Below are positions 8,685 through 64,000 of a stretch of 64,000 nt of DNA, piece after piece (position 1 is the first letter of the stretch; every line of letters starts with the position of its first letter). Source of the DNA: Fibrobacter sp. UWB11 (GTDB taxonomy: Bacteria; Fibrobacterota; Fibrobacteria; Fibrobacterales; Fibrobacteraceae); NCBI RefSeq assembly GCF_900143015.1, contig NZ_FSRT01000001.1, forward strand, positions 434,001-498,000. Reading direction: 5' to 3'. Position numbers and translations under genes: made by a program. The notes beneath the pieces were generated by a model that was not told the DNA's origin, did no database searches, and saw nothing but the letters and a program-made list of their open reading frames with translations.

Positions 8685-8703
8685 ATTTTAAATATAGCAT
8701 AAT

Positions 8704-8763
8704 GCGAGAGTCGCGACAATTTTGCTTGCAAAAATTGTCATGACCAAGCAGTGCAGTATGCAC
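8704..8763 (+). repeat. Three-hairpin dispersed element, copy A
   Basis: Order: GCGAGAGTCGC (8704-8714, a GCGA/TCGC mini-hairpin), arm GACAATTTT, loop GCTTGC (8724-8729), arm AAAAATTGTC, fixed block ATGACCAAGC (8740-8749), then a second hairpin GTGCA-GTA-TGCAC (8751-8763). The fixed blocks match copies B, C and D, while the arm sequences differ but still pair (one extra A in the 3' arm here). It lies in the intergenic region upstream of the fibro-slime gene. Confidence 0.75.
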
Positions 8764-8874
8764 TTTAGCGGAGTACCATATAGCATATTGGTAAAAAAAT
8801 TATATATTAAGTACAAACTTTTATTCAGTGCTAGAGCGAGTTTTTTTTCGCTGTGGCTATAATAAGGAGGAACA

Positions 8875-10485
8875 ATGAATAGGAATAAAAGAAATATGGC
8901 ACTAATAGTGCCAATTATGGTGTTTTTGGCCGCTTGTGCAGAAGATGATCCTGCGCCAGATGGTTTTGTTAATGGACCTCAGCAAAAAACGACCTGCCCT
9001 ACGGATGGTGCTAAACCTCTTGCGAAAGAGGGGGCTAATGTCGATGCGTCTTCGCTTAGTTTAGATGTCGTTATTCGCGATTTCCAGCAGAATCATCCAG
9101 ATTTTGAAAACTTCTCGGAAGAAGCGGTAGATCATTTGGATGATATCTATAACTATGAGACTGCGACCGGTGCAGCCATGAAAGCATTTGGTTTTGATGA
9201 AGATTGGTATGCGGCAACGTCTTACCACAATACATGCGGTAACATGTACACTTTCGAAAAATTTGGGGCGGGGATTCAAATAGGTGTTGATGGCCTGCCG
9301 ATGCAGGTGAATCCCTTTTTGCCATCGTATTTGCAGCAGGTTTCTACGGGCCCGGTCCTAGAATACGGGGAATGTGCTGAGACTGCGACTGCAATATCGG
9401 GGCCTAGGTTTTTGCGCGGCTACAAAAATGCTCTTGATAACGTGAATGGCACAAAGTGCCCTGGTGGGAAAAATAATTGGGCAAATCCGGTTGTTTACAC
9501 ACCTGGCATGGTGGATCCTTATTTGCTATTTACGAAGTTGGATAATAACGAGAGCCTTAATATGTATGAAGGGGTTGTCGTTCAAAAGTTGAATGAACGC
9601 TGTGACAACAGAAATTTTGATCAGTGGTTTGCTGATGTGCCTACTGTAAACAAGCGCATCAATATGGTCCTTGATCTTTCGAAGTCTTCAGACGAAAATA
9701 ATGACTTTGTTTACAATTTTAATTCCAACAATGGAGGGTTCTTCCCGCTAGATAGTGTGAATCCGGTGAATCGAGAATGGGTGATGGCAAAACCTTGTAA
9801 TCCGTCCATCCAGCCGACGGGTTCTTGTGAAATTTTTGAACCTCAATCGCTTTCCATATTCTGCCCACCTTACAAGTATCAGTATGCTCCAACTCAGCAG
9901 GATTTGTATGGTCAGAGTACCGCTAAGCTTTGTGCAGACTGGCTCAATGCGGGTGGTCCGCGTGCCGTAAATTCCGAAGGTACTGGACATAGTGCCGCTT
10001 TGCAGGCTGTTACAATGAACGGAGCTCTTGGCTTGCAACACTTCCGCAATTATGGCTTTACCATGATGGGGTATATGAATTTCCAGTACAAGGCATCAAA
10101 CCAGTTGCCTGAACCGGAAGTGCTGAAGTTTATTAGTAGTGGTGACTTGTGGGTGTTTGTTGATGGCGTTTTGGTTGTTGACTTGGGCGGTACACACTTA
10201 CCTGCTCCGGGTAGCGTGAACATTCAGACTCTTGCTCAAAATAATCATGGTTGCCATGTCGGAGAACCTTTGGCCGCGTATTCAAGTTGCAAAGGTGCAT
10301 CCGATGTAACGGGCTGGGCAGATGGATCCTCTCACCATTTGCATTTCTTTGTCGCTAACCGTCAGACCGAAATTTCTGATTTCTCGATGTCGCTCCCCTC
10401 GTCTTTTGTTGCAAGTGCCAGTGAAATTTCATATTCCGGCGAAGCGGAGAAGAAGGGTGAGGAAAGCGATGGTTGCGCATATTAA
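8875..10485 (+). CDS. Fibro-slime domain lipoprotein
   Basis: A surface lipoprotein of 536 residues (lipobox LAAC, Cys21). The C-terminal half carries the fibro-slime signature, with LWVFVDGVLVVDLGGTH at about residues 422-438, a PA14-like carbohydrate- or adhesion-related fold, and Asn/Gly-rich loops. In F. succinogenes such proteins are abundant outer-membrane proteins linked to contact with plant fibre; their exact role is not known. A strong AAGGAGG lies 6 bases before ATG 8875, and a GC-rich terminator follows at about 10506. It stands alone in its transcription unit, with copy A of the three-hairpin element upstream. Confidence 0.82.
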   Translation: MNRNKRNMALIVPIMVFLAACAEDDPAPDGFVNGPQQKTTCPTDGAKPLAKEGANVDASSLSLDVVIRDFQQNHPDFENFSEEAVDHLDDIYNYETATGAAMKAFGFDEDWYAATSYHNTCGNMYTFEKFGAGIQIGVDGLPMQVNPFLPSYLQQVSTGPVLEYGECAETATAISGPRFLRGYKNALDNVNGTKCPGGKNNWANPVVYTPGMVDPYLLFTKLDNNESLNMYEGVVVQKLNERCDNRNFDQWFADVPTVNKRINMVLDLSKSSDENNDFVYNFNSNNGGFFPLDSVNPVNREWVMAKPCNPSIQPTGSCEIFEPQSLSIFCPPYKYQYAPTQQDLYGQSTAKLCADWLNAGGPRAVNSEGTGHSAALQAVTMNGALGLQHFRNYGFTMMGYMNFQYKASNQLPEPEVLKFISSGDLWVFVDGVLVVDLGGTHLPAPGSVNIQTLAQNNHGCHVGEPLAAYSSCKGASDVTGWADGSSHHLHFFVANRQTEISDFSMSLPSSFVASASEISYSGEAEKKGEESDGCAY

Positions 10486-11492: not shown

Positions 11493-13421
11493 ATGTTAGA
11501 CGAGAGACGAAAGACTAGAGACGAGAGAACGGGTGAAACTTTACAGATGAAATACGAGAGAAAAAACGTCATTGCGAGCGTAGCGAAGCAATCTATAATT
11601 ATTTTATCCGTAGCGTTTTTCTTTTCTGCTTGTACGGATTACGTCTCGCAAATGGAAGATGATTTTGAGGGTTGGAAAAAGGCTCATTCAGAAATAGAAT
11701 CGGATGAATCCTCGTCTAGCGTTGCTGAATCCAGTAGTAGTGAACCAGTTTCATCGTCTAGTGTAAAATCGAATGGCTCTGATGGAGACTACGATTGTTC
11801 TGTGTCTGATGGCGTGAAAGTTGTTTATCCTGCCGGTGGCGAAAAATTCAAGGTTGGGCAAACGATTGATGTTGTGTTTGGAACATCTGTAGAAGATAAT
11901 GGCTACCGCATCATCTTCAAGAACGGAACTTCTGATCAGGGCTTTGATTTGCTCGATGTTACTTACGACGCTGTAATGGATGGCAAGACTTGTAACGAAG
12001 TGAAGGTCAAGCTCTCTGCCGACTTGGGTGTTGAACCGACTATGCACGGCATTATCCGCGTTGCTCCGTACAGTAGGCAGAACAAGGGCGCAAATTCGAA
12101 AGAATTTGTGGTTGAAAAAGGATTAAATGAAGAATCGTCATCGTCATCAATAGTGTCGTCTTCTTCTGCGGCTATTTCGTCGTCTTCAGTAAGTAGCTCT
12201 TCGATAATAACATTGGCATCTGGCGCAGTTGTCCAAAAAGATGTTTCGCTTTATTGGGATGATTATTCGGAATCATATGATATTGTAACGATTGGTTCTC
12301 AGACATGGATGGCAGAAAATCTTTATTCTCAATATATGTCTCCTTACTGTTTCCAGAACCGAACAGACTATTGCGAAATGTATGGTCGTCTTTATACGTT
12401 CAGTCTGACGGAGGATGCTTGCCCCGATGGATGGCATGTGCCGGATACGACGGACTGGAAAATTTTACTTGAAGTCGTTGGTAATAAATCTGCTAAAAAG
12501 CTCAAGTCTGAACAGTGGGCGGGTTCGGATGAATTCGGATTTGGAGTTCTTCCTGCTGGCTCTGGCAAAGTTAGTGATGATTGGAAACAGAGTTACGATG
12601 CCTCAGAATCATGTTTCTGGACTAGTAGCGAAACAGATGGAGAAAATGTGGCTGTTCTGTGTTTCTCTTCCGATGAAAACGAGGCTAAGTGGCAGAAAAG
12701 GTCAAAAACGTCCTTGTATTCTATTCGCTGCATTAAGGGCGAAAAAAAGACGGTTGCCAAGTCGTCAAGCAGCTCAGTGCAGTCCTCTTCGTCATTCTCT
12801 GTTTCGAAGCTGTCCGCAACGATTCTAGGCGATTCCTACTCGGTTGTTGATTTTAATGCCGAGGAAGGGAACATGAATCTTCATCAAAAATGGATGGCGG
12901 AAAACTTGCAGTATTGGGATGATAGCTTTACGTCAACAGAAAAAACGTGCTTTGATGATTATTATGCTTATGAACGAGATAATGGCGTTGATCTTTGCAA
13001 AAAATATGGGCGCTATTATAATACAGAGGAGGCTCTTTTCATCCATAGGCTGTCTACGGATCCGAATGATTGCTGGGTCTTGCCGGATTCGCAAGAAGTT
13101 AAGGAACTGATAGGTATCGTTGGTCATGATATAACAAAACTTTATTCTGAAGAAATGGGTGGGAACAACGAATCTAAGTTTAATCTTCTCCCAGCTGGTT
13201 ACTACGATCGTGATGCTTTGTTTTTGAGTTTGACGGGCAATAAAAGACTTAAAACTTGTTTTTGGATACGGTTAAATAGTCCGAGTAATCCAAGTAAATT
13301 GGCCGCTTACTGCTTCTATGAAAATGGCGAATCTTCAAAGTCTGAGATGACGGACGATGTTCGAAAAGCTCGTCTCCCCATCCGCCTTATATACGATCGG
13401 AATTATTGCCTCACGCATTGA
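11493..13421 (+). CDS. FISUMP-repeat lipoprotein with repeat-encoded N terminus
   Basis: 642 residues from ATG 11493, the start best placed behind AGGAGGG (11482-11488); ATG 11490 is too close. A second ATG at 11547 would start directly before the signal. The hydrophobic segment ends in lipobox FSAC. After Ser-rich linkers come a domain paralogous to the whole lipoprotein at 29107-29538 (DCSVSDGVKVVYP... GYRIIFKN), then a FISUMP repeat (IGSQTWMAENL, CPDGWHVPDTTDW, FWTSSE, SIRCIKG) and a second, degenerate one (KWMAENLQYW, CWVLPDSQEV). FISUMP proteins are a large Fibrobacter-specific family of secreted proteins of unknown function. The leader (11500-11535) and residues encoded at 11568-11594 come from dispersed repeats. 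Confidence 0.75.
   Translation: MLDERRKTRDERTGETLQMKYERKNVIASVAKQSIIILSVAFFFSACTDYVSQMEDDFEGWKKAHSEIESDESSSSVAESSSSEPVSSSSVKSNGSDGDYDCSVSDGVKVVYPAGGEKFKVGQTIDVVFGTSVEDNGYRIIFKNGTSDQGFDLLDVTYDAVMDGKTCNEVKVKLSADLGVEPTMHGIIRVAPYSRQNKGANSKEFVVEKGLNEESSSSSIVSSSSAAISSSSVSSSSIITLASGAVVQKDVSLYWDDYSESYDIVTIGSQTWMAENLYSQYMSPYCFQNRTDYCEMYGRLYTFSLTEDACPDGWHVPDTTDWKILLEVVGNKSAKKLKSEQWAGSDEFGFGVLPAGSGKVSDDWKQSYDASESCFWTSSETDGENVAVLCFSSDENEAKWQKRSKTSLYSIRCIKGEKKTVAKSSSSSVQSSSSFSVSKLSATILGDSYSVVDFNAEEGNMNLHQKWMAENLQYWDDSFTSTEKTCFDDYYAYERDNGVDLCKKYGRYYNTEEALFIHRLSTDPNDCWVLPDSQEVKELIGIVGHDITKLYSEEMGGNNESKFNLLPAGYYDRDALFLSLTGNKRLKTCFWIRLNSPSNPSKLAAYCFYENGESSKSEMTDDVRKARLPIRLIYDRNYCLTH
11500..11535 (+). repeat. 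GACGAGAG-type repeat module within a gene
   Basis: Reads AGACGAGAGACGAAAGAC then TAGAGACGAGAGAACGGG. The same wording is found in three-hairpin copies B (19173-19190) and D (minus strand near 53100-53117). It encodes the charged start of the FISUMP lipoprotein. Confidence 0.5.
11568..11594 (+). repeat. GTCAT hairpin, TTGC class, within coding sequence
   Basis: GTCATTGCGAGCG followed by TAGCGAAGCAATCT: the arms ATTGC and GCAAT pair. The minus-strand copy at 32309-32334 has the same class. Here it is read in frame as VIASVAKQS, part of the signal peptide of the FISUMP lipoprotein. Confidence 0.7.
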
Positions 13422-18812: not shown

Positions 18813-19868
18813 TTGTCCTCTTCCGGCTTCGTCCTCTTGGACAAAATTGCAGGTGAAACATCTTTTAAGGCCCTTTTCCCTCTGAAAAGGGTCTTTTGTA
18901 CTAAACGCGTGGGCCATGCAGGTACGCTCGATTTGCGTGCAAGCGGGCTCATTATTGCCGCTACGGGTCGTGCAACGCGCCTTTTGCCTTACATTGAGGC
19001 GAAGGACAAGTGCTATACGTTCAGGCTCCACCTTGGCTATGAAACCGACACCCTGGAATGGGACGGGGAAGTGGTTAAGGTAGACGACAAATGCGTGGGG
19101 CGAGAGTCGCAGCCATGCTTGCATGGATATGACCGAGCCCAGCATTTGGGACTTGAGCAAAGCGAAAGTCCAAAGACGAGAGACGAGAGTAGTTGTCATC
19201 CTGGAGCCGAAGGCGATAGGATCCAGTGCGGAGTGCCATCGGTGACGCGTGCGGACCTCGAAGCGGTTTTGCCGCAGTTCATTGGCGACATTGACCAGGT
19301 TCCGCCGAATTACAGTGCTGTGAAAATCGACGGCCATCGCGCAAGCGACTTGGCGAATCGCGGTCGTGAAATTGAACTTAAGCCTCGCCGCATCCATATC
19401 GAATCGCTCAAAGTTGTGGGCGAGGGCAAGGTTACGGAAGGCTGTACCGGTAAGAGCTTTGCCACGTTTGATTTGGAATGCAACTGTAGCAAGGGAACGT
19501 ACATCCGCTCGCTCGGTCGTGATTTGGCTCGTGCGCTCGGAACGTGCGGCTGTGTCTCAATGATCCGCCGCCATCGCATTGGTAATGTGACTGTGGATCG
19601 CGCTGTTCGCGGGGACGCTCTTACGCCGGAACATTTGCTCCCTGTGGACCAGGTGCTTGATTTTCCGGTGGTCCGTTTGAATGACGACCAGGTGAAAGCG
19701 ATTCGTTTAGGAAATTGGGTGCCGTGGCGCACTCCTGTTGAAAATTTAAGCACGACGCCTGGGTCGGAAAAGTTTGTCTTTACCGCCGATAAAGATGGCG
19801 CTGTGATTGGGCTTGGCGTTTATGACCCGGGCCGCATTTGCCCCAAGTTCTTTTTAGGTGATGATTAA
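18813..19868 (+). CDS. truB: tRNA pseudouridine(55) synthase TruB with in-frame insertion
   Basis: Makes pseudouridine 55 in the T-loop of tRNAs. The catalytic Asp is Asp40 (GHAGTLDLRASGL), and the family motifs KCYTFRLHLG, QVPPNYSAVKIDG and CSKGTYIRSLGRDL are present. The 351 residues exceed the usual ~300 because residues about 91-140, between DGEVVKV and VTRADLE, are encoded by copy B of the three-hairpin repeat (19083-19226). The insertion keeps the frame and falls in a variable loop of the family, away from the active site, so the enzyme is probably functional. The start is TTG 18813, directly after the rbfA stop, with AGGGGAA just upstream. It abuts ribF. Confidence 0.92.
   Translation: MSSSGFVLLDKIAGETSFKALFPLKRVFCTKRVGHAGTLDLRASGLIIAATGRATRLLPYIEAKDKCYTFRLHLGYETDTLEWDGEVVKVDDKCVGRESQPCLHGYDRAQHLGLEQSESPKTRDESSCHPGAEGDRIQCGVPSVTRADLEAVLPQFIGDIDQVPPNYSAVKIDGHRASDLANRGREIELKPRRIHIESLKVVGEGKVTEGCTGKSFATFDLECNCSKGTYIRSLGRDLARALGTCGCVSMIRRHRIGNVTVDRAVRGDALTPEHLLPVDQVLDFPVVRLNDDQVKAIRLGNWVPWRTPVENLSTTPGSEKFVFTADKDGAVIGLGVYDPGRICPKFFLGDD
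19083..19226 (+). repeat. Three-hairpin dispersed element, copy B (inside truB)
   Basis: 144 bases homologous to intergenic copy D over its length. Order: GACGACAAATGC, GCGAGAGTCGC (19100-19110), H1 arms CCAT/ATGG around GCTTGC (19117-19122), ATGACCGAGC (19129-19138), H2 arms GGACTT (19149-19154) and AAGTCC (19166-19171), GACGAGAG words, and a terminal GTCAT hairpin (19195-19226). Its length is divisible by three and the truB frame has no stop in it. Confidence 0.85.
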
Positions 19869-41184: not shown

Positions 41185-41412
41185 ATCGTCTCCGTTGAGA
41201 ATTTTGAGAACAATTAAAACCCTTACAACTATAGTTAATATATATAAATATTTGAAAAAGAGGTTCTTATATAAACCTTAATTTGAGAAAAATTTTGAGA
41301 ACATTTGGAAGAGATTGTTTTAAAAACATTTTGACCATTTTTGCCGTGTTTAAATCATTTTACGCGAATTTCAAGAAAAAATTAGTCCGAACGCCTCTTA
41401 AAAGCGTGCAAA

Positions 41413-41479
41413 ACGAGTGTCGCAGAAAAATGCTTGCATTTTTCTATGACCGAGTGCAGCCGCGGACGCCGTAGGCGTC
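41413..41479 (+). repeat. Three-hairpin dispersed element, copy C
   Basis: ACGAGTGTCGC (41413-41423), H1 arms AGAAAAAT and ATTTTTCT (8 perfect pairs) around GCTTGC (41432-41437), ATGACCGAGT (41446-41455), then H2 GACGCC-GTA-GGCGTC (41465-41479). Confidence 0.75.
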
Positions 41480-41492
41480 AAAAGCGTGTTAA

Positions 41493-41524
41493 TATAACGG
41501 TAGGGGATGTTCCTTACCGTTATA
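41493..41524. repeat. Perfect 10-bp inverted repeat before the Rpn gene
   Basis: TATAACGGTA (41493-41502) and TACCGTTATA (41515-41524) with a 12-base spacer. It ends where the RBS AAGGA (41524-41528) begins, so it could be an operator or an RNA hairpin. Confidence 0.6.
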
Positions 41525-41535
41525 AGGACATGCTG

Positions 41536-42495
41536 ATGGCAAATGAAAATAATACGACAAAACCGTATATTGTGAAAAATGCAGATGGCGTAGAATACTT
41601 GCTTCCGTATTATCCGGCGACGTTTCGAGCATTGCTGGATGACAAGGACACGATTCGTGACCTGCTGAACAGTATTCTTGAACTCGATACCGAACACGAA
41701 ATAGTCGACCTCAGCTACGCATTTGAAAAATATATCGATGTGTTCATGCCGGGCGATGAGCCCATGCGGCTTGACGTGTGGGTGGCGACGCGTGACAACC
41801 GCTTCATGAATATTGAGTTGCAAAACCGCGAACATCCGTTCTTCTTGGACCGTATGCAGCTTTACAACGCTTATCTAACGATACGTGGCAAGCATGACTA
41901 CAATCGTTCGGAACAGTTCCTTGCCATGTCCGAAAAGGAAAAGATGGCTCATTATTATGAGGTTCCTGAAACCGTTTCCATTTGGCTTTGCAGGTTCCCG
42001 ATTTTGGAGCCGAGAGAAATCTATAAGGATACATGGACGCTGTATAGCAAACACGATGTAAAGACGGGGGAGGCCTTGCCTCTGTTTCCGAAAAATAAAT
42101 ATATTATAGTCGATTTGGTTAAGTTCCTAAAGCTTCGCAAGGGCGTAAACTCCCGTGAAGATTTTTGGCTTAGGCTTATTTCTAGAGGTCCGCTTGAAGT
42201 CCCTGAATCGGAAGATCCACTTCTTAAGAATGCTTTGGCCCGCTTGCGAGTAAGCAATGCAGATCCTGAACTTTTGAAAAAAATGGAGCAATTCATGTTC
42301 GATGAAATGCATGCATACGATGCCGTTATAGCCGAGAATTTCCTCAAGGGTAAGACTGAAGGTGAAGCTAAGGGTAAAGCCGAAGGCAAAACTGAAGGCC
42401 ATGCCGATGCGATAAGCGTTATGCAGGCTATGGGCTTACCTCCTGAGCAAATCGCCGAGGCGAAGGCTCGGCTTGATGCTTTGAAAACGAAGTAA
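41536..42495 (+). CDS. Rpn family PD-(D/E)XK nuclease/transposase-like protein
   Basis: 319 residues, similar to the Rpn/TIGR01784 group once called 'transposases': small recombination-promoting nucleases found in many copies. The core has MRLDVWVATRDNRFMNIELQNRE (about 80-100), matching the D...ExQ nuclease motif. The middle contains the family's helical part, and the C terminus has the characteristic KGKTEGEAKGKAEGKTEGH repeat. ATG 41536 has AAGGA 7 bases upstream; ATG 41530 is too close. No terminal repeats or target duplication delimit a mobile element. Confidence 0.82.
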   Translation: MANENNTTKPYIVKNADGVEYLLPYYPATFRALLDDKDTIRDLLNSILELDTEHEIVDLSYAFEKYIDVFMPGDEPMRLDVWVATRDNRFMNIELQNREHPFFLDRMQLYNAYLTIRGKHDYNRSEQFLAMSEKEKMAHYYEVPETVSIWLCRFPILEPREIYKDTWTLYSKHDVKTGEALPLFPKNKYIIVDLVKFLKLRKGVNSREDFWLRLISRGPLEVPESEDPLLKNALARLRVSNADPELLKKMEQFMFDEMHAYDAVIAENFLKGKTEGEAKGKAEGKTEGHADAISVMQAMGLPPEQIAEAKARLDALKTK

Positions 42496-52078: not shown

Positions 52079-52160
52079 TAGTTATTAGTCATTAGTTATT
52101 AGTTGCTAGTTGCTAGTTGCTGCTATTGACTACTGACTAATGACCATTGACTAATTCCTA
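52079..52160. repeat. TAG/ACT-rich degenerate intergenic array
   Basis: TTAGTCATTAGTTATTAG, TTGCTAGTTGCTAGTTGC and GACTAATGACCATTGACTAA; the same word family as at 132-290 and 8379-8478. Confidence 0.6.
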
Positions 52161-52913
52161 TTTTTCAAACTCTATAATACTTCTGTAAATCGGGCGGCCT
52201 TCTTTGCGGTACTTGCGTTCGAATCCTGTCGTAATTCCTTCGGTGGGTTCTGCCGTATTGCGGACAAGCACCTTGCAAGTCGGGTAGGCATCGAATGTTT
52301 CAAGAGCGATTTCGTTGTATTCCTTGTGGTCGGTGCCCCAGTAGAAAATGCGTTTGCCCGGCTTAAGGCAACGGGCGACTTCATCGAGAAAGTCGGGGCG
52401 CAACAAACGGTTCTTGTGGTGGCGTTCCTTTGGCCACGGATCCGGGAAATACATGTGGAATGCATCGACTGTGTTGTCCTTCACGGCGTCACGCAAGAAG
52501 TAGAACACGTCACCGCGCAACATGGCAGCATTGCCTTGAGCAACGATACCGCGCTTTTCCATACGTTCGTGAGCGAAGGCAGCCCAAGTGTAATCCCATT
52601 CACTACCCATGATAAAGTAGTCCGGATGTCTCTCGGCATAGTCCGTCATGAAGTTGCCCTTGCCACTTCCAATTTCAACTTCGATATGACCGTTTTCGTT
52701 CGGGAACATATCTTTCCAGTTGAAGTCGAGCTTGTGCGGTAATCCGTCCGGCGTCTTGATCGGCTTGCGGTCGCCATTCGTGCGGAATATGTAATGCCAC
52801 AGCGCCTTCATTTGCGGATCTTGGTTCAAGTCGCGATAAAACTCCGGAATTACAACTTCCTTAGGAGCCTTTTCTTCTTCGTTCAATACTTCGTTGTTGT
52901 TTTCGTCTGCCAT
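52158..52913 (-). CDS. trmB: tRNA (guanine-N7)-methyltransferase
   Basis: Makes m7G46 in tRNA with SAM as methyl donor. 251 residues: an N-terminal acidic extension (about 1-20), then the Rossmann core with VEIGSGKGNF (about 77-86), FHMYFPDPWPKERHHKNR (about 145-162, the TrmB signature), TDHKEY and the ending FERKYRKEGRPIYR. AGGAAAG precedes ATG 52913. Confidence 0.93.
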   Translation of the reverse strand: MADENNNEVLNEEEKAPKEVVIPEFYRDLNQDPQMKALWHYIFRTNGDRKPIKTPDGLPHKLDFNWKDMFPNENGHIEVEIGSGKGNFMTDYAERHPDYFIMGSEWDYTWAAFAHERMEKRGIVAQGNAAMLRGDVFYFLRDAVKDNTVDAFHMYFPDPWPKERHHKNRLLRPDFLDEVARCLKPGKRIFYWGTDHKEYNEIALETFDAYPTCKVLVRNTAEPTEGITTGFERKYRKEGRPIYRSIIEFEK

Positions 52914-52935: not shown

Positions 52936-53120
52936 CTGGATCCTTCGTCCCTGCGGTCCTCAGGATGACGCTGTCCGCGCATTTCGCTCACTCTCGTCTT
53001 TGAACATTCGCTTCGCTTATGTCCCAAATGCTAGGCTCGGTCATATCCATGCAAGCATGTCTGCGACTCTCGCTTTATGCATTTGTCGTCTGTAGGCGCT
53101 TGCGCCGTTCTCTCGTCTAA
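52936..53120 (-). repeat. Three-hairpin dispersed element, copy D
   Basis: On the minus strand: GACGACAAATGC (53079-53090), GCGAGAGTCGC (53063-53073), H1 arms ACAT/ATGG around GCTTGC (53051-53056), ATGACCGAGC (53035-53044), H2 GGACAT (53019-53024) with ATGTTC (53002-53007), GACGAGAG words, then a GTCAT hairpin (52938-52969). It fills the gap between trmB and the RNase Z-like gene, and aligns with copy B inside truB. A further palindrome GGCGC-AA-GCGCC lies at about 53094-53105. Confidence 0.85.
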
Positions 53121-54004
53121 ATAAACGCTACAATTCTCTCCTTGAATTTTTCCGGGATGCTCTTGTCAAGCATTTCGCGAATATGCCTTTCGGAATACTT
53201 CATCGAAAAGTGGCTCAAGATTATTTTTTCACACTTGATTTCATCGTCGAGTTCGTTGAGTGCGTTGACGATATCTTTCAAGTGGCTATGCCCTTTTTTC
53301 TTGCTCATCGCTTCTTCGCCATCGTCGAGGAAGGTGCATTCCGTAATCAGCACCTTCGACTGGAAAACGCGACTGTTGTCGAGCAAACTTTCGCCAAGGC
53401 AATCGCCCATAAAGCTCACGAGCGGTTCGTAAACTTCGCGCGTGATTTCGACTCCGTTCTTGCGGAGCTCGATGATTTCTGTAGCGCTTTTCCCGAGGTA
53501 TTCTTCCTTGAGTTTTTTCTTGTAGAAATACAGCGTAGCACCCATGGTCGGGATAGAATGTTTGACTTCGAATGCTTCGATTGCGAGGTCCTTGCGGTAG
53601 CGCAAAAATTGCAATTCGCCTGCGGTGACAGGTTCAATTTCCGGATAGCGGAATTTTGTTTCTCCGACACCTTCGAACAAAGCTTCGGCCTTGATCCATG
53701 TTTTTGCGTTTTCGCTGATAAAATCCGGCATGTAATAAACGCTGTCGCGTTCGACTCCCATCATTTTTCGCAGGCTGTGGTGACGCATCAAGCAACGGGC
53801 GTGGTCGCCATGAGCGTGCGTCAGGAATACGTGGTCGAGGGGAATCGCCGAAAGCGGACATTCGCCCATGTCGATGCAAAAATCCAGTTCAGGAATTTGA
53901 ATATATGTAGCCAGTCCGGAAATTGAGAATCCGGATATGGGCGAGCAGGGCGTATCGACGTGGATTTGCCTTAGAGCGTTGTGTATGTACTTATTTTCGT
54001 TCAC
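53117..54004 (-). CDS. Metallo-beta-lactamase-fold hydrolase, RNase Z-like
   Basis: 295 residues from GTG 54004. The MBL motif is HAHGDH (residues about 63-68), with GDCLGES and LSHFS for the other metal ligands. The layout resembles RNase Z/tRNA 3'-endonuclease-like proteins, but the flexible arm is not clear, so the substrate is uncertain. The frame stays open to TTG 54043. GTG 54004 was chosen because it is close to the first conserved residues, with GGGCGGT upstream; this choice is weak. Confidence 0.68.
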   Translation of the reverse strand: MNENKYIHNALRQIHVDTPCSPISGFSISGLATYIQIPELDFCIDMGECPLSAIPLDHVFLTHAHGDHARCLMRHHSLRKMMGVERDSVYYMPDFISENAKTWIKAEALFEGVGETKFRYPEIEPVTAGELQFLRYRKDLAIEAFEVKHSIPTMGATLYFYKKKLKEEYLGKSATEIIELRKNGVEITREVYEPLVSFMGDCLGESLLDNSRVFQSKVLITECTFLDDGEEAMSKKKGHSHLKDIVNALNELDDEIKCEKIILSHFSMKYSERHIREMLDKSIPEKFKERIVAFI

Positions 54005-54060
54005 TTTTTTACCGCCCGATAATTTAGCAAAAAAGCAAATCAAAAAATTGACACTTTTCT

Positions 54061-61078: not shown

Positions 61079-62491
61079 CTAGAATCTTCTTCGATGTCCC
61101 GGAAAACGCTCATAGTAACGATTCTTGTCTTCGTACATGAGTGTGTCTGCTTCGTGCAATGCCTTACGGATTTTGCCTCCGTTTTCATCGTAGCTTAAGC
61201 CGATGGCAAAACTGATATGTCCCGGAATCATGGAATCCTGGCGGATTTTTTCGACCTTGGCCTCAAGTTCCTCTTTAGGCTGATCAATTGCAATAACGAG
61301 GAATTCGTCACCACCGGCACGGTAACATTCGCTGTCTTTAAAGGTTGTTCTTAAAACTTGTGCAGCTTGTTTTAAAAGATTGTCACCGGCATCGTGACCT
61401 TGATTGTCGTTGACCGGCTTGAGCCCGTTCAAGTCAGCAAAAATAACGGCTAGGGATTTATATGAAATCTCTCCGTTCACGAACTGCGAAATTCTGTTGT
61501 TCATGGAATTGCGGTTCAAAAGACCTGTCAAAAGGTCCTGGTTGCTGAGAATTTCGAGCCTGTTCAAAAGCTGGTAATTTGCAATTTCGGATGCGACAAA
61601 GAATGCCGAAAGCTCAAGCGTTTCTCTGATGTAGACCGTATTGGATGTGTCAAAGTTTGTGACCCAAATAAATCCAATGTTGGTTCCGGAATACTGTAGT
61701 GGCAAAAGAACGAGGGATTCGACATTTGCATTGACGAGTGAATTGTACCAAGTAAGGTCTGCTTGGTGGATCAGTTCAAGGTCTGCATCATTTTTTATCA
61801 TCAGGCAGAGACTTCCATCAAGGAACTTTAACCATGTTTTGGCGTATTCGGTAAAGTTTTGGTCTTTATATTCTCGAATAGAATGTTGATTTGAACCAGC
61901 TTTTACAGAATCGCTAAATACCGACCATGTGTTTTCGTTGAAGTCTGTGAGCAATACGCAGCAGTAGCTAGCATCGCAAATCTTGCGGATATCCTCGATA
62001 ACTTCGTCCATGGTTTCTTGCAGATTTTTTGCTCCACGGAGTTTAATGCAGGTCTGCAATACAGTAGATGATGTTTTTGCCGAAATGTTCGACATAGCAT
62101 CAAGGTCTTCTTCGAACGTTATTTCTTGAGAATATGTGCAATACGCCTTGTTCGGGTCTTTGATGTCTAAGGGCATCATTATCAAGTTGATGCTAAAATT
62201 ATAGCGCTCTGGACGAATGTAGGCGTGAACGGGCTTTTTCTTGATGGCACATTCATAGCATAAATTTTCAAAATACAATTCCTTCTTCATGTAGCGTTCA
62301 TAACTGCTACCGGGAACAAATTTTTGCTTGAAAACGACATTGCCGTCTTCATCAACTTTTTCCATGGAACGGATGTACAAGTCATTACCGACCTCGATGC
62401 GGATGGTGCCGATTTTATCATCGTTGCGTTTTTCGACCGATAGGATGCTTGTCATCGTATGGAACCTGTTGACAATATCTTGTAGATTCAT
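61079..62491 (-). CDS. Diguanylate cyclase with GAF-like domain, tandem copy 1
   Basis: 470 residues. The first 145 form a domain shared by the neighbouring paralogue (SYERYMKKELYFENLCYECA, HAYIRPER, with Cys pairs). About 150-300 is GAF-like (SYCCVLLTDF..., LVLLPLQYSGTNIGFIWV). The C terminus is a GGDEF domain with intact YRAGGDEFLVI near residue 395, so it should make c-di-GMP. The residues before GGDEF lack an RxxD inhibitory site. Function as a signalling enzyme with an unknown ligand. 15 bases separate it from the next gene. Confidence 0.85.
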   Translation of the reverse strand: MNLQDIVNRFHTMTSILSVEKRNDDKIGTIRIEVGNDLYIRSMEKVDEDGNVVFKQKFVPGSSYERYMKKELYFENLCYECAIKKKPVHAYIRPERYNFSINLIMMPLDIKDPNKAYCTYSQEITFEEDLDAMSNISAKTSSTVLQTCIKLRGAKNLQETMDEVIEDIRKICDASYCCVLLTDFNENTWSVFSDSVKAGSNQHSIREYKDQNFTEYAKTWLKFLDGSLCLMIKNDADLELIHQADLTWYNSLVNANVESLVLLPLQYSGTNIGFIWVTNFDTSNTVYIRETLELSAFFVASEIANYQLLNRLEILSNQDLLTGLLNRNSMNNRISQFVNGEISYKSLAVIFADLNGLKPVNDNQGHDAGDNLLKQAAQVLRTTFKDSECYRAGGDEFLVIAIDQPKEELEAKVEKIRQDSMIPGHISFAIGLSYDENGGKIRKALHEADTLMYEDKNRYYERFPGHRRRF

Positions 62492-62506
62492 CAGTTCCTC
62501 CGTCTA

Positions 62507-63916
62507 TTATCTTTTTTTTAGTTCCGGATGCATGGCGTAGAATTGTTTTTTGTCTTCGTACATTTGAACGTCAGCTTCTTGCATCGCTTTTCGAATACTG
62601 CCGCCCTCTTCGTTATAGTAAAAACCCAATGAAAAACTCACGTTGTTCAAGTCCATGGATTTTTCATGGATTTTTTTGACCTTAGCTTCGATTATGTCTT
62701 TAGGCTGGTCTGTGATGATTACCAAAAATTCATCTCCGCCTGCACGGTACACTTCTCCTTCCGTAAATGTTTCGGTCAAAATGCAAGATGCTTTTTTCAA
62801 CAGTTGGTCACCAGCATCATGCCCTTGAATATCGTTGACGGGCTTGAGTCCATTGAGGTCAGCGAATATAACAGCCAATGATTTGTATGTAATCTCTCCG
62901 TTCACGAACTGCGAAATCCTGTTGTTCATGGAATTGCGGTTCAAAAGACCTGTCAGCAAATCCGTGTTGCTGAGCTCTTCAAGCTTGTTCACTAACTGGT
63001 AGTTTGCAATTTCCGAAGCTATAAAGAACGTCGAAGTTTCGAGAATTTCTTTTATTTGTAGTGCTTTGGATGTGTCGAAATTGGCAACCCAGAAAAAGCC
63101 TATGATTCTGTTATTCGCTTCAATCGGTAACAAAATAAGGCTGTCAACATCATGCTGTTGAAGAGATGCGTACCATTTTGGATTCCGTTTTTTGACGATT
63201 TCAAAATCGTCTTCGTTCTCTAGCATTAAACAGTTGCTATTGGCGAGAATATCAATCCATGTTTTGGCAAAATCGATAAAATCATGGGTCAGGTCTTCTC
63301 TAAGAGAGCGTTGGTTTGAACTATTTTTAACCGAGTCGCTAAATACGGAACAAGTATGCTCGCTAAAGTCGGTTAGCAAAATGCAACAGTAGCTTGCGTT
63401 ACAGATTTCACGAATGTCTTTAATGACTTCATCCATGGTCTTTTGCAGATTTTGTGCACCACGGAGCTTAATACATGTCTTGAGGACCGTCGATGATGTT
63501 TCTGCAGAAAGCTTAGACATGGCATCGTAGTCCACCTCGGGCGAAATACATTGTGAGTAAGAACAATATGCCTTTTTCGGGTCGTCAATATTCAGGGGCA
63601 GCATGACTAGGTTGATACAAAAGTCGAAGTGCTCCGGGCGGATGTAGGCATGAATAGGTTCTTTTTTGATGGCGCACTGGTAGCAGAAGTGTTCGAAGTT
63701 CAGTTCCTTCTTCATGTACCGTTCGTAACTGGAACCGGGTTTAAAGGGCTCGTTTGTTATGGCATACCCATCACGAACGGCTTGTTCTGTTGCTTCAATG
63801 AACGGTTTGTTGGCTACTTCATAAAGAATGCGACCAAGTCTACCGTCTTCTCGCTTTTCGACTGAAACAACACAAGTCATTGTGTTAAAGGAATCCACAA
63901 ACTTTTGCAAGTCCAT
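62507..63916 (-). CDS. Diguanylate cyclase with GAF-like domain, tandem copy 2
   Basis: 469 residues, closely related to the copy at 61079-62491 along its whole length. Shared pieces include SYERYMKKELNFEHFCYQCA, HAYIRPEHFDF, and the nearly identical stretch DLLTGLLNRNSMNNRISQF (about 317-335). GGDEF is intact (YRAGGDEFLVI). No RxxD inhibitory site is seen. The three genes in a row look like a recent local expansion, and their sensing domains may have drifted apart. Confidence 0.85.
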   Translation of the reverse strand: MDLQKFVDSFNTMTCVVSVEKREDGRLGRILYEVANKPFIEATEQAVRDGYAITNEPFKPGSSYERYMKKELNFEHFCYQCAIKKEPIHAYIRPEHFDFCINLVMLPLNIDDPKKAYCSYSQCISPEVDYDAMSKLSAETSSTVLKTCIKLRGAQNLQKTMDEVIKDIREICNASYCCILLTDFSEHTCSVFSDSVKNSSNQRSLREDLTHDFIDFAKTWIDILANSNCLMLENEDDFEIVKKRNPKWYASLQQHDVDSLILLPIEANNRIIGFFWVANFDTSKALQIKEILETSTFFIASEIANYQLVNKLEELSNTDLLTGLLNRNSMNNRISQFVNGEITYKSLAVIFADLNGLKPVNDIQGHDAGDQLLKKASCILTETFTEGEVYRAGGDEFLVIITDQPKDIIEAKVKKIHEKSMDLNNVSFSLGFYYNEEGGSIRKAMQEADVQMYEDKKQFYAMHPELKKR

Positions 63917-63918
63917 AT

Positions 63919-64000
63919 TTAACGCTTCCTGTTTTCTGGATATTTTTCATAAAAGCGCTTTTTATCTTCGTACATGCGGGCGTCTGCTTCTCGCATGGCT
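63919..64000 (-). CDS. Third tandem GGDEF protein, C-terminal part only
   Basis: The minus strand is open from the window edge to TAA (63919-63921) and reads AMREADARMYEDKKRFYEKY and then PENRKR, matching the end of the two preceding cyclases (EADVQMYEDKKQFYAMHPEL). The 5' part is outside the window. It ends 2 bases before the start of copy 2. Confidence 0.8.
   Translation of the reverse strand, partial: AMREADARMYEDKKRFYEKYPENRKR

Follow-up and report, generated by a model that had tools for sequence, protein, structure and literature searches.

In Fibrobacter sp. UWB11, a loop of the tRNA pseudouridine-55 synthase TruB is enlarged by 144 bases that do not form one element: they comprise two unrelated ones, a structured repeat, here called unit A, and a CGTC-type REP hairpin. 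Unit A and the REP are both dispersed repeats with hairpin structure. It is highly probable that two kinds of non-autonomous palindromic repeats landed in the TruB loop and are translated there, adding 47-48 disordered residues to the protein. The truB site is a recurrent hotspot, and not every species' loop represents an insertion event of its own. The window analysed is a stretch of 64,000 nucleotides (contig 1, positions 434001-498000) from a genome of 3.76 Mb; its relevant features are listed in Table 1.

Table 1. Features of truB, of its insert and of the intergenic relative (window coordinates)
Feature	Position	Strand	Description
truB (tRNA pseudouridine-55 synthase)	18813..19868	+	351 aa, TTG start
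Composite in-frame insert	19083..19226	+	TruB residues 91-138
Unit A	19083..19179	+	97 nt; GACGA ends 19083-19087 and 19175-19179
Unit A core	19085..19155	+	covariance model R1, 94.3 bits
Unit A core helices	19088-19094/19142-19148, 19098-19101/19137-19140, 19106-19117/19122-19133	+	
Unit A second hairpin	19149..19171	+	GGACTT...AAGTCC
Link	19172..19189	+	AAAGACGAGAGACGAGAG; 7-nt periodicity
CGTC-type REP hairpin	19194..19225	+	32 nt; TGTC tag, CCA tail
Intergenic relative	52936..53091	-	unit A (53018-53088), GACGAGAG, different REP (52937-52969)

Composition of the TruB insert

The host ORF is TruB. It scores 210 bits against TIGR00431 (cut-off 151), and the best Foldseek match of its AlphaFold2 model is E. 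coli TruB in complex with a T stem-loop (1k8w, E 8e-27). The TruB_N profile matches the protein in two stretches, the better of which starts at residue 132. The gene is preceded by ORFs that we take to be infB-like and rbfA-like and followed by one that we take to be ribF-like. The initial annotation had described the 144 bases as in frame and free of stops inside truB, and both the sequence and the ORF translation bear this out; the gain of about 48 residues that it proposed amounts to a net 47 codons when the gene is set against the empty loop of the related genome G014 (351 versus 304 aa). The model has a mean pLDDT of 81 and falls below 50 only over residues 97-141, which take in most of the insert. 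The insert would be translated as a segment predicted to be disordered, and the intact frame and this predicted disorder suggest that TruB tolerates it.

The whole insert had also been considered homologous to an intergenic copy near 53 kb. This holds only up to position 19182: bases 19082-19182 are 89% identical over 101 nt to the reverse complement of 52991-53091, and the match of the insert to the 53-kb copy has an E value of 6.6e-32 in a search of the whole genome, so it is not due to chance. Bases 19194-19225 are instead a separate REP hairpin, which reads TGTCATCC...GGATCCA and carries the tag and the tail of CGTC REPs. Between unit A and this REP lies the link GACGAGAG, also written GACGAGAGACGAGAG. 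The order of the modules is the same in the 53-kb copy, and the REP subtype differs. That copy is indeed intergenic, lying between the ORFs 52158-52913 and 53117-54043. Elsewhere in the window, direct repeats at 61097-64000 (spacing 1,425 bases, 71-75% identity) and the pair 11790-12123/29203-29539 (17.4 kb apart, 74%) are probably paralogous genes.

The two repeat families in Fibrobacter

Unit A gives 76-77 covariance-model matches in this genome, the best-scoring of which for R1 is the core in truB, itself a member of the alignment of R1. Under strict filters the model finds unit A in all 25 Fibrobacter genomes (7-100 matches each) and in none of the 16 genomes searched from outside Fibrobacter; so far this structured repeat family has been seen only in that genus. 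Across 29 copies, standard pairs fill 90.5% of the cells belonging to 21 pairs, and changes on both sides occur in 17 of the 21. In four of five measures of pairing none of 500 shuffles scored as high; the fifth, the number of further pair types, was reached by 16 of 500. By eye, GACGA stands just before the first helix in 11 of the 29 copies, and in nine of these 11 also after the second hairpin. Rfam holds no family for the unit A copies of the window at gathering score, and for the truB copy, one of seven unit A loci searched, no match appeared even to E 5. A weak match to RF02634 over another copy, L013, scores 29 bits (gathering score 100; E 0.0034) and extends over a terminator-like hairpin as well; it was taken as chance.

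The structure raises the question of whether the hairpins are kept for a role in RNA, a folded mRNA in the infB-rbfA-truB-ribF run tuning stability or expression. The RNA of the 144-nt insert folds better than all of 200 shuffles (z -4.66), unit A combines covarying pairs with invariant internal-loop bases, and a same-strand gene lies upstream of 16 of the 21 intergenic copies whose 5' neighbour was scored (the ORFs were called crudely). However, four further unit A stretches have z values from -4.15 to -0.17, relatives exist whose truB loops of 20-21 residues are free of any repeats, and the sequence, type and number of the repeats vary by species. We therefore consider an RNA role improbable.

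Most of the best 30 unit A copies of the genome lie between predicted ORFs (22 copies). Of the eight that overlap an ORF, all inspected, only two, in TruB and in an RlmL-like gene, seem to be true in-gene copies. In other genomes unit A occurs in frame in MnmE (G006), in CoaBC (G020) and at another place in the RlmL-like gene (G001), and the frame read in these three gives DDKC..R.S.P...HDR..HLG. An apparent insertion in ValS of the present genome was rejected, the copy sitting just after the gene; ValS-like copies of G020 and G012 adjoin odd or masked sequence and were left uncounted. Weaker unit A matches occur in the window at 8689-8766 (41.9 bits, upstream of ORF 8875-10485) and at 41400-41471 (30.5 bits, overlapping the listed ORF 41434-42495 at its 5' end).

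The exact REP pattern, which itself required an AT/AT stem start and a CCA or CTA tail, has 80 copies in the genome and none in the reversed control. All 25 Fibrobacter genomes contain it (4-184 copies), as do two of 16 others (three copies and one). The copies of this genome share the GTC tag and an outer stem ATCCT/AGGAT, and the inner stem is variable; the truB REP likewise has the AT/AT stem start. GTC is preceded by C or T in 76 of the 80 copies, and in all 33 REP starts of truB loops, one of which is a scar. Many copies have five to six outer pairs, a GA/GA internal loop and then the inner stem (the CGTC criterion being a stem of 8-9 bp and a loop of 4-5 nt). With DNA parameters, the 73 distinct sequences yield 69 single hairpins, 42 with a 3-nt and 15 with a 4-nt loop; the 3-4 nt loop has the form G..A in 32 of the 69. 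Kept inner-stem pairing, G..A loops and GA/GA internal loops resemble very stable hairpins of single-stranded DNA, and these features perhaps suggest a part for single-stranded DNA in mobility. REP starts of the GTCATTGCGAG type occur in the window at 11568-11578 (+) and 32324-32334 (-), each preceded by C.

Dispersed, diverged copies and empty sites suggest that some machinery would copy the elements into new sites. A tyrosine transposase (RAYT/IS200) was set aside as the mover: this genome has no match to Y1_Tnp (PF01797), for which five of 14 control genomes match. Nor did GACGAGA hold as a general REP target, since it lies within 25 nt upstream of only two of the 80 REPs; this exceeds the background of 0.0029 per stretch, or about 0.2 expected in 80, and GACGAGA-type sequence goes with unit A rather than with REPs. 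The REP at 30575-30600 of the window is missing from G014, where the preceding GGATCC is kept at the empty site; comparison of the two revealed no clear target duplication. No insertion in progress was seen.

Turnover of the truB loop among relatives

A protein search recovered 24 truB loci from the 25 genomes of the genus, the present one included, and a second search 43 named loci, a 44th (L193, Cloacimonetes) being left out. The relatives are recorded as Fibrobacter succinogenes, Fibrobacter sp. and, in two cases, Fibrobacteraceae or Fibrobacterales. The two sets overlap; none of the 67 loci was dropped, and they represent 54 distinct truB genes, with the loci outside the genus (L055-L060) not among them. 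An apparent loss of truB in G008 is probably an assembly gap, as rbfA was also not found there. All 54 genes read through the loop in frame (a search by protein match disfavours broken genes), and the loop ranges from 21 to 109 aa. A REP start is found in 31 of the 54 loops (6,627 nt), always on the sense strand and never antisense. By comparison, the flanking parts of rbfA, truB and ribF, 113,231 nt and thus 17 times more sequence, contain four REP starts on both strands together.

Close relatives differ at this site. G014 is 98-99% identical to the present genome in rbfA and the 5' part of truB and has an empty loop of 21 residues, the loop of G001 holds a different REP, and G004 has the same insert (loop 99.0% identical). 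The initial annotation had set against its own reading a conserved domain carried by all close relatives, which the loops of G014 and G001 contradict; its proposal that the repeat was moved or copied into truB is supported by the lack of the insert in G014, the homologous intergenic DNA and the in-frame unit A copies of other genes. Vertical inheritance of the insert as a TruB domain, or an artefact of assembly, has practically no probability left: nothing was found in its favour, a second genome (G004) has the insert, other near and far relatives are without it, and homologous DNA is intergenic. A clear target duplication at the ends of the insert, which the initial annotation suggested looking for, did not emerge from the comparison with G014, and the alignment with G001 was uninterpretable.

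In a tree built without the loop, G014 and G001 fall inside the clade of the present genome and G004 (support 100/99), the inner branch joining them to G004 having a support of only 88/51. This tree requires at least 27 changes for twelve loop states (some of the calls were made by hand), 15 for presence or absence of a repeat and three for unit A, which occurs in two non-sister groups only. Since loops also travel between species, these changes do not count insertions, and recombination inflates their number. Loop alleles are exchanged between species by recombination: the loops of L038 and L039 are 97.5% identical and their flanks 80-86%, while L036 and L168 show no difference in ribF or in the distal part of truB (100% identity), have different loops and are 94-96% identical beside the loop. 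The allele L155 (RUG12208) has the link and the REP without unit A, and the unit A of L152 differs from that of the present genome at one of 100 bases despite flanks that differ by 7-13%; consequently, unit A probably came second in the truB loop and may have been passed on by recombination. The likely order of events would be link and REP first, as in L155, and unit A later beside GACGA. Afterwards, turnover would have proceeded through losses and through interspecies homologous recombination.

The single orientation of all 31 REP-bearing loops counts against free insertion, as insertion in either orientation does not predict it; a directional target would account for it, and so would a single ancestral insertion that was overwritten later. 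A single ancestral entry of a REP into truB, afterwards only overwritten by REP conversion, lost or swapped, would also fit left junctions that are often close together, the demonstrated exchange of loops between species and the inserts that R. japonica orthologs carry at the same locus (in the sections of PMC3767692 drawn on here). We nevertheless regard it as unlikely. The 33 REP starts of the loops, scored with a looser motif (one is a deletion scar and two share a loop), fall into three frames (15, 17 and 1), the types GTCATCC, GTCATTC and GTCATTGCGAG coexist, most empty alleles are without a scar, and unit A is confined to its two groups.

Selection of the insert for TruB function has very little to recommend it. 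REP-derived sequence is indeed present in more than half of the distinct alleles, but sequences and frames vary by species, empty loops are common and disorder is predicted. In the favoured reading, insertions that break needed genes would be purged, and those in the truB loop would survive as the loop tolerates in-frame sequence.

Other host genes and comparison with known systems

Stop-to-stop frames of 100 codons or more enclose 47 of the 80 exact REPs, but many such frames appear spurious or have the REP at one end. At least eight lie inside recognised genes: the gene for HrpA carries two, and those for TruB, HemD, TilS, LigA, a glycosyltransferase and an HrpB-like helicase carry one each. 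A ninth falls within the C-terminal part of a DusB-like protein. In the HrpA helicase (1404 aa, L142:126-4337) the two REPs are near residues 98 and 863. For the TilS loop before AIVTAHHA (L218-L241), probably a second hotspot, 13 distinct alleles could be delimited, and in 10 of them a loose 7-base motif, used without a control, marks REP starts; each of these ten has one on the antisense strand, and two have one on the sense strand as well. In ligA, where eight of 23 scanned loci were delimited, the loop before the adenylation domain (loci L194, L195, L197 and L207) is short in G001, holds a REP in G000 and has other sequence in G014 and G006. Among close species, one and the same site may lack a repeat, hold one or hold a different one; this is clear for truB and probable for tilS and ligA.

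A more specific reading, which we offer tentatively and hold to be possible rather than probable, is that the truB loop, and with it that of tilS, is a docking site at which repeats would be acquired repeatedly, with one orientation preferred, and would be replaced, lost and handed from species to species as small cassettes, unit A being a genus-wide structured element with a mobilising factor of its own. If so, non-coding repeats keep becoming protein in essential-type genes.

Palindromic repeats in truB are already known. CGTC REPs were published in five phyla (Di Nocera et al. 2013, PMC3733652); according to the sections of that paper considered here, they are mostly intergenic, often near gene 3' ends, and have no dedicated transposase, and they sometimes lie in coding regions, including genes for DNA repair, RNA helicases and tRNA synthetases. 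REPs are reported there in truB of S. maltophilia, E. lithoralis and S. alaskensis, along with an RPE-1 in truB of R. conorii. A search of the open-licence literature for truB palindromic inserts yielded, by titles, only this paper as relevant, and one for Fibrobacter interspersed or palindromic repeats or literal REP motifs yielded none in print. The Fibrobacter REPs share with these CGTC REPs the CGTC/TGTC tag, the AT-led stem and the CCA tail; they differ in that the inner stem of many copies is variable and their loops, in the folds computed here, measure 3 nt, and Fibrobacter is not named in the main text of PMC3733652. That paper describes one case, recB of two Xanthomonas species, of different REPs at about the same site, whereas in Fibrobacter one truB site turns over through a genus. 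With GTAG REPs and their RAYTs the common feature is short hairpin repeats spread through the genome, but the truB copy begins with TGTC, not GTAG, and the genome gave no Y1_Tnp match.

Rickettsial RPEs are repeats of 100-150 bp, some of them inside ORFs, where they keep the frame and lie in solvent-exposed parts of the protein; the motif ATGAC of RPE-4/6/7 is the complement of GTCAT (PMC3767692, PMC10969869). Unit A resembles RPEs in behaviour, being both intergenic and in frame in TruB, an RlmL-like protein, MnmE and CoaBC. It belongs to another phylum, and, going by the parts of these papers used here, Rickettsia orthologs share the locus of the insert while close Fibrobacter relatives differ. 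What is new is the lineage, the unit A repeat family and the visible turnover and exchange at one site. Rickettsia are intracellular parasites, and Fibrobacter lies outside such a lifestyle. The relevant sections of PMC3767692 do not decide whether the in-gene repeats of Rickettsia mark hotspots or old single insertions; Fibrobacter offers a tractable case for this question outside intracellular parasites, and its loops can show how new protein segments originate from mobile non-coding DNA.
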